From Curtobacterium sp. Leaf261 (GTDB lineage: Bacteria; Actinomycetota; Actinomycetes; Actinomycetales; Microbacteriaceae), in assembly GCF_001422205.1 (NCBI RefSeq), contig NZ_LMMJ01000008.1:486915-550914 (forward strand): DNA of 64,000 nucleotides, given 5' to 3'. The notes under the pieces are model-generated. The model was given only the letters and a program-made list of their open reading frames with translations, made no database searches and had not been told where the DNA came from. Position numbers and translations under genes: made by a program. This document shows, one piece after another, positions 7,739 to 61,618 of the stretch; position 1 is the first letter of the stretch, and each line of letters starts with the position of its first letter.

Positions 7739-8634
7739 CCGTTCCCCCGGCCGACGCTCGGCCCGGTCTCCTCGATCGCGTCCCCGCACCCGCCCTCGCG
7801 ATCACCGCGATGGTGTCCGTGCAGCTCGGCGCCGCGATCGCCAAGAACCACTTCGACGAGGTCGGCTCGGTCGGTGCCGCGACGCTCCGCCTGACCGTCG
7901 GCGCCGTCGTCCTCGCGCTCGTCGTCCGCCCGCGGGTGTTCCGCTGGACGCGGTCCCAGTGGGTCGCGGCGATCGGACTCGGTCTCGCGCTCGGCGGCAT
8001 GAACGTGTTCATCTACGTGGCCTTCGCGACGATCCCGATCGGCGTCGCCGTCACGATCGAGTTCCTCGGTCCGCTCGCGCTGTCGCTGGTGCACACCCGT
8101 CGGTGGCGAGACGTCGTCTGGGCACTCCTCGCGCTCGTCGGGGTGGTGCTCCTCGGTTCGGGGTCGAGCGGCGCGACCGGGTTCGTCGGCGTGTTGTTCG
8201 CCGTCATGGCCGCGGTGTGCTGGGCGGGCTACATCGTGATGAACCGGTACGTCGGTGCGCGGATCCCGGGTGTCGACGGGCTCTGCGTCTCCCTCGTCGT
8301 GTCGATGCTCGTGTCGTTGCCGTTCGGCACGGCGTCCGCGGTGGACGGGGTGCGTGCCGCTCCGACCCTGCTGCTCGTGTTCCTCGGGGTCGGTGTGCTC
8401 TCGAGCGTGCTGCCGTACGCGCTCGAGATGCACGCGCTGCGACGGATCCCGACGCGCGTGTTCGGTGTCCTGCAGAGCCTCGGGCCAGCGATCGCCGCGC
8501 TCGCCGGGTTCGTCATCGTGGGGGAGGCCCTCACCCCGCTCGAACTCGTCGCACTCGCGAGCGTCAGCGTGGCGAGCATCGGCGTGACGATCAGCGGCCG
8601 GCGGGGCTACTCCTCGGTCAGGAAGTCCGCGTAG
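7735..8634 (+). CDS. EamA/DMT-superfamily exporter (RhtA-like)
   Basis: A 299-residue membrane protein with ten predicted helices arranged as two EamA repeats (about residues 10-140 and 150-290), close in pattern to the threonine/homoserine exporter RhtA: FIYVAFATIPIGVAVTIEFLGPL in repeat 1 and an LP-ALE-HALRRIPTRVFGVLQSLGPAIAALAGF segment in repeat 2. It probably exports amino acids or small metabolites across the cytoplasmic membrane. GTG 7735 overlaps the regulator stop, so translation is coupled to the two-component system. The substrate is not determined by sequence. Confidence 0.88.
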   Translation: MTVPPADARPGLLDRVPAPALAITAMVSVQLGAAIAKNHFDEVGSVGAATLRLTVGAVVLALVVRPRVFRWTRSQWVAAIGLGLALGGMNVFIYVAFATIPIGVAVTIEFLGPLALSLVHTRRWRDVVWALLALVGVVLLGSGSSGATGFVGVLFAVMAAVCWAGYIVMNRYVGARIPGVDGLCVSLVVSMLVSLPFGTASAVDGVRAAPTLLLVFLGVGVLSSVLPYALEMHALRRIPTRVFGVLQSLGPAIAALAGFVIVGEALTPLELVALASVSVASIGVTISGRRGYSSVRKSA

Positions 8635-8759
8635 GTCGGTTCGTGCTGTCCGCCCGACAGCAGCGCGGGGTCGTTCACGCGGCGTTCGACGTACGCGGCG
8701 ATGACCTCGGGCGGCGTGAGGAGATGCGCGACCCATGAGGTCGCGTCCTGCTTGGTCAT
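8607..8759 (-). CDS. Small hypothetical protein, 50 residues
   Basis: A short reading frame, below the usual length cut-off. The product begins MTKQDATSWVAHLLTPPEVI and ends with TYADFLTEE; it is mildly acidic, soluble and without membrane segments. Support: ATG at 8759 is preceded on the minus strand by a purine-rich Shine-Dalgarno (GAGGGGAG) and by three 15-bp direct repeats that could be its control region. Its last nine codons overlap the 3' end of the EamA gene in the opposite direction. I do not recognise a family. Confidence 0.6.
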   Translation of the reverse strand: MTKQDATSWVAHLLTPPEVIAAYVERRVNDPALLSGGQHEPTYADFLTEE

Positions 8760-8966: not shown

Positions 8967-9278
8967 TCATGTCCGGCGTCCGTGACGGTCGTCGGTGCGG
9001 AGCGTCCGGTGCTTCACGGCGGAACGCCAGACCCACGCCGACGTCGGGTGTCCGAACTGGGCCCACTCCACGAGCACCGCATCCACGGTCCAGCTCCGCA
9101 CGAACCCCCGCACCCGGACGTGGAACGCGGGGAACTGGATCCACGCCCACACCGGGATCGGGTTCACCGCGTGGCAGACGTCGCCGCCGCGCGCGTCCTC
9201 GGACAGCGAGTAGGCATCGGGGCGCGGCGAGTCCGGGTGCTCCGGCGGCGACCACCGGTCCTCTCGACGTCGACCCAT
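8967..9278 (-). CDS. Small SOS-box-controlled protein of unknown function
   Basis: The product has 103 residues. It is rich in Trp and Arg, begins MGRRREDRWSPPEHPDSPRP and has central aromatic strands (NPIPVWAWIQFP, VRGFVRSWTVDAVLVEWAQFG). There is no signal or membrane segment. ATG 9278 was chosen over the upstream in-frame ATG because a -10 hexamer (TCGAAT, minus strand, 9285-9290) stands six bases before it and a LexA box lies between -10 and -35, which would put the upstream codon inside the operator. I do not recognise the family. A role in the DNA-damage response is inferred only from the promoter. Stand-alone gene. Confidence 0.7.
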   Translation of the reverse strand: MGRRREDRWSPPEHPDSPRPDAYSLSEDARGGDVCHAVNPIPVWAWIQFPAFHVRVRGFVRSWTVDAVLVEWAQFGHPTSAWVWRSAVKHRTLRTDDRHGRRT

Positions 9279-9284
9279 GGAGCC

Positions 9285-9314
9285 ATTCGAAACTATGTTC
9301 GAACGCTCCGTCAA
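9285..9314 (-). promoter_or_regulatory. LexA-controlled promoter with SOS box at 9287-9302
   Basis: On the minus strand: -35 TTGACG (9314-9309), 18-base spacer, -10 TCGAAT (9290-9285), then six bases to ATG 9278. The 16-bp TCGAACATAGTTTCGA (9302-9287) matches the actinobacterial LexA consensus TCGAAC-N4-GTTCGA at 11 of 12 fixed positions and overlaps the -10. Repression by LexA and damage induction are expected from this geometry. Confidence 0.75.
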
Positions 9315-61137: not shown

Positions 61138-61188
61138 TTGTCGGCACCGGGATCACCCCGTACACTCGCGATTCGAACATGTGTTCGA
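61138..61188 (+). promoter_or_regulatory. Promoter with perfect SOS box at 61173-61188
   Basis: TTGTCG (61138-61143), 17-base spacer, TACACT (61161-61166), then a perfect LexA box TCGAACATGTGTTCGA over the expected start site. LexA would block transcription of the 99-residue gene at 61212. Confidence 0.8.
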
Positions 61189-61211: not shown

Positions 61212-61511
61212 GTGCTGGTTCGTCAGGCGGAGGTCGTGCAGGTCGGAACGACGACCTCCGGGTCCCCGCGGAGCCTCACCTGGGACGGCGTCCGGTACCG
61301 TGTGAGCGATCGACCGACACGCTGGAGCGGTCGCGGTGACGGCTGGGACTTCGGGCCGGATCCGGTGGCGGTGCGGTCCGCGGATGCTGATCCCTCCGCC
61401 GGTCTGTCGCTCTGGCGCTTCCAGGCGACGCCGGTCGACGGGGGTCCGAGCGTCGTCGTGGACGTCGTCTGCGCCGACGGTGGCTGGGTGCTCCTCGGCG
61501 TCGTGCGCTAG
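61212..61511 (+). CDS. Small SOS-controlled protein, DUF6504-like
   Basis: 99 residues. The pattern SPRSLTWDGVRYRVSDRPTRW followed by LWRFQATPV...VVDVVCADGGWVLLGVVR recalls DUF6504, a small beta-rich family often encoded near Y-family polymerases in actinobacteria; recognition is tentative. GTG 61212 has GAGGTGG eight bases upstream. A perfect LexA box precedes it, and the imuA'-imuB operon starts 113 bases after its stop with a second box, so it likely shares the DNA-damage response. No catalytic motif is visible. Confidence 0.65.
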   Translation: MLVRQAEVVQVGTTTSGSPRSLTWDGVRYRVSDRPTRWSGRGDGWDFGPDPVAVRSADADPSAGLSLWRFQATPVDGGPSVVVDVVCADGGWVLLGVVR

Positions 61512-61589: not shown

Positions 61590-61618
61590 TTGACATCATC
61601 GAACACATGTTCGAATAT
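61590..61618 (+). promoter_or_regulatory. imuA' promoter with perfect SOS box at 61599-61614
   Basis: Consensus -35 TTGACA (61590-61595), 17-base spacer, -10 GAATAT (61613-61618), then six bases to ATG 61625. The perfect LexA box TCGAACACATGTTCGA fills the spacer and touches the -10. This fixes the imuA' start and predicts a leaderless, tightly LexA-repressed transcript. Confidence 0.88.

Follow-up and report, generated by a model that had tools for sequence, protein, structure and literature searches.

A predicted LexA-controlled gene of Curtobacterium belongs to an unnamed protein family spanning the Actinomycetes and may aid DNA-damage tolerance

A small gene of Curtobacterium sp. Leaf261 raises the question of whether the LexA box in its promoter places it under SOS control and, if so, what its product contributes to the damage response. 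The gene, P0001, is located on the minus strand of a 64,000-nucleotide stretch of contig NZ_LMMJ01000008.1 (positions 486,915 to 550,914), referred to here as the window. The case for predicted LexA control of the P0001 gene is strong, because the box is conserved in front of its orthologues, whereas the molecular function of the protein family is one that we infer. The gene and its promoter are composed of the following elements:

8967-9278, minus strand: P0001 coding sequence, 103 residues, ending in a stop codon; member of an unnamed family, as judged from its translation and homologues
9285-9290, minus strand: -10-like element TCGAAT, six bases ahead of the start codon
9287-9302, minus strand: LexA box TCGAACATAGTTTCGA, matching 11 of 12 fixed positions and overlapping the -10 element
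9309-9314, minus strand: -35 element TTGACG, of which TTGAC is kept in 25 of 25 upstream sequences

Read along the minus strand, the promoter comprises TTGACG (9314-9309), an 18-base spacer (9308-9291), TCGAAT (9290-9285), and GGCTCC (9284-9279), followed by the ATG start codon (9278-9276), as described in the initial annotation. The TCGAACATAGTTTCGA box runs from 9302 to 9287, and its sole mismatch among the 12 fixed bases is at 9292, which agrees with the match count given earlier. The box had been placed between the -35 and -10 elements; it is not strictly between them, as it reaches four bases into the -10. Scoring used the 12 fixed bases of TCGAACNNNNGTTCGA, which we take to be the actinobacterial LexA consensus. 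The transcript of P0001 is probably leaderless, since TCGAAT is only six bases from the start codon. Initiation at an alternative TTG would produce a protein of 115 residues, with the start codon falling within the promoter; the alignment of the orthologues starts at the ATG or GTG corresponding to 9278, not at the upstream TTG. The absence of a sigma-70 call between 8600 and 9500 by a generic promoter scanner is explained by its requirement for A at -10 position 2. LexA sites starting with TCGAAC are on record in PMC9380542.

The box is preserved in front of the orthologues of P0001. Protein similarity led to 24 orthologous loci, of which 23 are titled Curtobacterium and the remaining one Microbacteriaceae bacterium. 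All 24 fetched loci contain TCGAACACACGTTCGA at position -24 or -25 relative to the start. Together with the window they provide 25 distinct upstream sequences, in which 16 of the 19 columns of the 19-base site TTCGAAC....TTCGAAT never vary and three are identical in 24 of 25. TTGAC stands five to six bases ahead of this site in every one of them, and columns further upstream of the site agree in just 8-20 of 25. In 22 of 24 Curtobacterium genomes (its own and 21 of 23 relatives), the extended site TTCGAACANNNNTTCGAAT is positioned immediately 5' of the gene; this second set may share species with the 24 fetched loci. The remaining two genomes, G004 and G010, have neither the site nor a strong orthologue. 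Each Curtobacterium genome contains zero to three copies of TTCGAACANNNNTTCGAAT, and the reversed control was found zero times in all 39 genomes. Among 15 genomes of other genera, the site occurs once in each of two, unconnected to the P0001 gene. Of 35 genomes of the genus, 31 encode a strong orthologue of P0001. The initial annotation had linked its proposal to the conservation of the box before homologues, and among orthologues this conservation holds.

The association extends beyond the genus. We compared 64 distinct family members from 60 stretches of other genera of the order (domain expectation value, E, at most 1e-6; one duplicate collapsed, 65 to 64) with 385 control genes from the same stretches. 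Just upstream of the members, 9 boxes are perfect, 19 are within one mismatch, and 32 within two; for the controls the corresponding counts are 0, 1, and 7. Controls less than 500 bases from a member were left out, because such genes can share an operator. With a wider upstream search range and most member-adjacent controls kept, 20 of 66 members and 6 of 398 controls have a box within one mismatch. A member with such a box is found in 11 of 19 genera, where random draws of control genes would lead one to expect 0.13, and boxes of this quality occur in families f1, f3, f6, f9, and f14. In the more distant family f38, six of eight loci have a box within two mismatches less than 60 bases upstream, for example GCGAACATATGTTCTA, a count made without a control. 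The suggestion of an SOS function in Microbacteriaceae is too narrow: distant members preceded by boxes also occur in several further families of this order and in one more of the class. As predicted from these sequences, it is an Actinomycetes-wide SOS-linked family, broader than first proposed.

The protein has no match in Pfam (E up to 1), NCBIfam, or PHROGs. A scan of 80 family members gave scattered matches (best E 0.00017, at most three members per library family), which we judge to be chance. These blanks bear out two earlier proposals, that the product matches no recognized family and that its SOS function may be undescribed. Profiles of SRAP (PF02586), the LysM domain, and DUF6504 (PF20114) in Pfam do not match P0001. 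The two chains matched in a sequence search of the PDB (E 0.016 and 0.2) are designed proteins by name and were set aside. The search for a description of the family was confined to open-licence PubMed Central literature and found none there.

AlphaFold2 predicts residues 35-91 to form an SH3/Tudor-like five-strand barrel (mean predicted local distance difference test score, pLDDT, 85). The predicted barrel may resemble those of SGF29, TDRD3, PHF1, and the 53BP1 Tudor domain, and the C-terminal domain of retroviral integrase. The best matches to SGF29, TDRD3, and PHF1 align 48-57 residues with a root-mean-square deviation of 1.3-2.4 Å, and others, such as that to 53BP1, are looser. The top Foldseek match is ZapC (E 0.14-0.22), and the ZapC, ribosomal, and Tudor matches are all weak. 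Neither a CarD nor an Mfd chain is among the 50 fold-search matches listed. The family has conserved aromatic residues, a conserved aromatic strand, W82-V83-W84, lies in the predicted P0001 barrel, and the protein has a basic tail. The isoelectric point of P0001 is 10.5, and the family median is 9.6. In the viral fold library, only BFVD A0A3G3M4X2, an uncharacterized protein of Arthrobacter phage Seahorse, matches at an E of 0.001 or lower (4.7e-4). A tblastn search of phage records with three family members found no relative.

The genome encodes LexA (LexA_DNA_bind match, E 6.3e-23), and a box of the same type, TCGAACGTATGTTCGG, is located upstream of lexA (locus L201). This box also faces a divergent gene, which we take, from its looks, to be the usual actinobacterial LysM-type SOS division inhibitor. 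Just one more perfect TTCGAACANNNNTTCGAAT site exists in the genome, a perfect LexA box at G000:C9:230455-230470 (locus L037). Its layout, leaderless in type, is TTGACC, four bases, the 19-base site TTCGAACACATGTTCGAAT, six bases, and ATG. The gene that follows contains the motif CSHACVYC (CxxxCxxC), from which we presume that it is a radical-SAM gene. The box had also been considered as a promoter element of a malate:quinone-oxidoreductase-like gene, an assignment that we rejected, as the end of that gene, not its start, faces the box. The radical-SAM gene probably belongs to an already known class of SOS repair genes. Its promoter offers a positive control of the layout within the same genome, because a LexA target resembling radical-SAM DNA-repair enzymes is reported in PMC9380542. 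The P0001 promoter is closer in layout to this promoter than to that of imuA', to which it had been called nearly identical: the two are similar, but the gap from the -35 to the box is six bases in P0001 and three in imuA'. The imuA' region of the window contains the following features:

61173-61188, plus strand: perfect LexA box upstream of a DUF6504-like gene (G000:C8:548087)
61212-61511, plus strand: DUF6504-like coding sequence, 99 residues, whose relatives adjoin family members in other genera
61599-61614, plus strand: perfect LexA box of the imuA' promoter (G000:C8:548513)

The DUF6504-like gene at 61212, which has no Pfam match of its own, thus has a perfect box distinct from that of imuA'. 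It precedes imuA', imuB, and dnaE2; the names imuB and dnaE2 are our assumption from sequence features, and that of imuA' is taken from the initial annotation. The SRAP gene of this genome is on another contig, away from the imuA' region.

Neighbors of the family were tallied at 59 loci, with some of the queries taken from these same loci and the counts made without a control. Eight loci have a SRAP gene within 2 kb, although the match at one of them, L116, is weak (E 3e-6). A DUF6504-like gene is no more than 260 bases away at ten loci, and a Y-family-polymerase-like gene no more than 2.8 kb away at two. Pfam confirmed SRAP in all four genes submitted (L102, L127, L142, and L192). The SRAP gene is divergent from the family gene across a LexA-like box at three f6 loci, L102-L104; at L127 and L142 it follows the family gene in the same orientation. 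SRAP (YedK/HMCES) is a recurrent neighbor of the family, yet P0001 is less than half its size. The DUF6504 label is weak: the L134 gene matches at E 3.4e-4, under Pfam's cut-off, four plasmid genes at 0.007 to 0.05, and the genes of L126, L136, L146, and L147, like that of the window, have no Pfam match to it. The L146 and L147 genes are 35 and 39 percent identical to the window gene by BLASTP. DUF6504-like proteins resemble P0001 in being small and LexA-linked but are not homologous to it by profile comparison (hhalign probability 0.1). At L102-L104, L146, L147, and L151, a box with one or two mismatches lies between divergent genes and may serve both. At L179, a Y-family polymerase gene is about 0.5 kb upstream, with a gene called on the opposite strand between the two. 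Taken together, the neighbors suggest a link to DNA-damage tolerance.

Downstream of P0001 on the same strand is a further reading frame:

8607-8759, minus strand: open reading frame of 50 residues (SWVAHLLTPPEVI...)

At least 21 of the 24 orthologous loci have it as well, usually some 100 bases past the P0001 orthologue, and it is preceded by a conserved promoter-like stretch, TTGAC...GAGGATCG. An operon of the two genes was not adopted, as this stretch suggests that the 50-residue gene has its own promoter.

The family is also carried on plasmids. P0001 matches 29 plasmid records, 20 of them from Curtobacterium, and the member at L102 matches 34, of which 19 are typed as conjugative. Occurrence is patchy (53 of 396 genomes of the order). 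The box has one mismatch before a Cryobacterium plasmid member and two in Curtobacterium pC1c. Among five Arthrobacter-group plasmid loci, four have TCGAACATATATTCTA or TCGAATATATGTTCTA, with two mismatches, and the fifth has a box with three. In all five of these plasmids that were opened, the family gene and the DUF6504-like gene overlap by 20 bases, and one of them has a SRAP gene about 2.1 kb further on. Among the neighbors of a mobile-element kind are an ArdC-type gene (Pfam ArdcN) and genes for ParA-like proteins, resolvases, and transposases; one neighbor without a Pfam match is presumably ParB-like. At L050, L053, L063, and other Curtobacterium paralogue loci, two family subtypes form tandem pairs with overlapping stop and start codons, and the two are joined in a single 184-residue protein, P0025.

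We hypothesize that the P0001 gene is LexA-repressed and damage-induced, and that its product, a predicted SH3/Tudor-like barrel, acts where DNA is damaged, binding either the DNA or a protein there, and aids tolerance, an explanation that we consider somewhat probable. Since the LexA site overlaps the -10, bound LexA would block RNA polymerase. DNA damage would lead to RecA-stimulated self-cleavage of LexA and free the promoter, and a leaderless mRNA would begin at or near the start codon. The best-supported role that we infer is that of a damage-tolerance accessory that acts at blocked forks or abasic sites by binding either DNA or a partner, because the protein is a small, basic predicted barrel with conserved aromatics and has the neighbor genes described above. 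More tentatively, the barrel, basic tail, and W82-V83-W84 strand may form this accessory, which could work beside SRAP or the ImuA'B-DnaE2/DUF6504 translesion set.

Several observations weigh against this explanation. By sequence, the box alone is barely beyond chance and not exceptional, because the core of 10 fixed bases occurs in the window with at most two mismatches 96 times, against a shuffle mean of 64, and TCGAACNNNNGTTCGA occurs in the genome within one mismatch at 59 places (four perfect; reversed control 5). A box within two mismatches is missing from 32 of the 64 distant members and from all Curtobacterium paralogues examined (0 of 26), and none of the 12 members of subgroup g36 has a box. 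Homologues lacking the box, which the initial annotation had taken as counter-evidence, are thus found among the paralogues and half of the distant members, not among the orthologues. The 59 genomic places would fit a chance palindrome before a gene outside LexA control, but the conservation at 24 of 24 loci and in 22 of 24 genomes and the enrichment before distant members argue against it, and we regard it as highly improbable. It is this conservation, not sequence alone, that settles that the putative box exceeds chance. Another possibility, to which we give limited credence, is that the family has mainly a plasmid or mobile-element function (establishment, anti-defence, or damage tolerance) cued by the host SOS response, and that the chromosomal Curtobacterium gene is a domesticated copy. 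The 29 and 34 plasmid records, the ArdC-type, ParA-like, resolvase, and transposase neighbors, and the patchy distribution favor it, whereas the strong orthologue in 31 of 35 genomes of the genus, whose box is present in every case that was checked, fits a host function, and the Curtobacterium paralogues without the box also speak against it.

The small size and predicted SOS control of P0001 would also suit a checkpoint protein slowing division or growth, like small SOS division inhibitors elsewhere, and ZapC, the top Foldseek match, is an FtsZ regulator, though its E value is weak. However, P0001 has no LysM or other Pfam match, the gene divergent from lexA is presumably the usual LysM-type division inhibitor, and the recurrent neighbors are damage-response genes; we find such a role quite improbable. 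Tudor-like modules of the CarD and Mfd type interact with RNA polymerase, and the predicted fold and conserved aromatics are compatible with a barrel that binds the polymerase and couples transcription to repair. This appears unlikely, given the lack of a sequence match; the lack of a CarD or Mfd chain among the 50 fold matches listed excludes nothing.

The P0001 gene resembles known genes of the actinobacterial LexA regulon (imuA'-imuB-dnaE2 and lexA; Streptomyces venezuelae) in that the same type of operator overlaps the promoter. PMC9380542 describes LexA targets whose function is not known, one of them a plasmid operon in which a hypothetical protein is encoded together with DNA polymerase IV. 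The P0001 family differs from the known regulon genes in being unnamed and undescribed in the literature searched, with an SOS link predicted from sequence. The P0001 gene is a new candidate SOS gene under a known kind of regulation, and its family, unmatched in the libraries searched, spans the class. As an extension of the preferred explanation, a damage-tolerance accessory under LexA control, we speculate, with considerable reserve, that the members are class-wide SOS-induced Tudor-like "lesion readers" of damaged or abasic DNA or its proteins, which recruit the SRAP shield or the ImuA'B-DnaE2/DUF6504 mutasome and are encoded by chromosomes as well as by conjugative plasmids. In actinobacteria, the response to DNA damage depends on the ImuA'-ImuB-DnaE2 mutasome and on SRAP. 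To our knowledge, the accessory parts of the mutasome are incompletely known, and little is known of the partners of bacterial SRAP proteins. A small LexA-linked family that recurs next to genes for SRAP and DUF6504-like proteins is a direct candidate for such a missing component of the damage response, and plasmids are predicted to carry this probable damage-tolerance gene under a host-type SOS switch.
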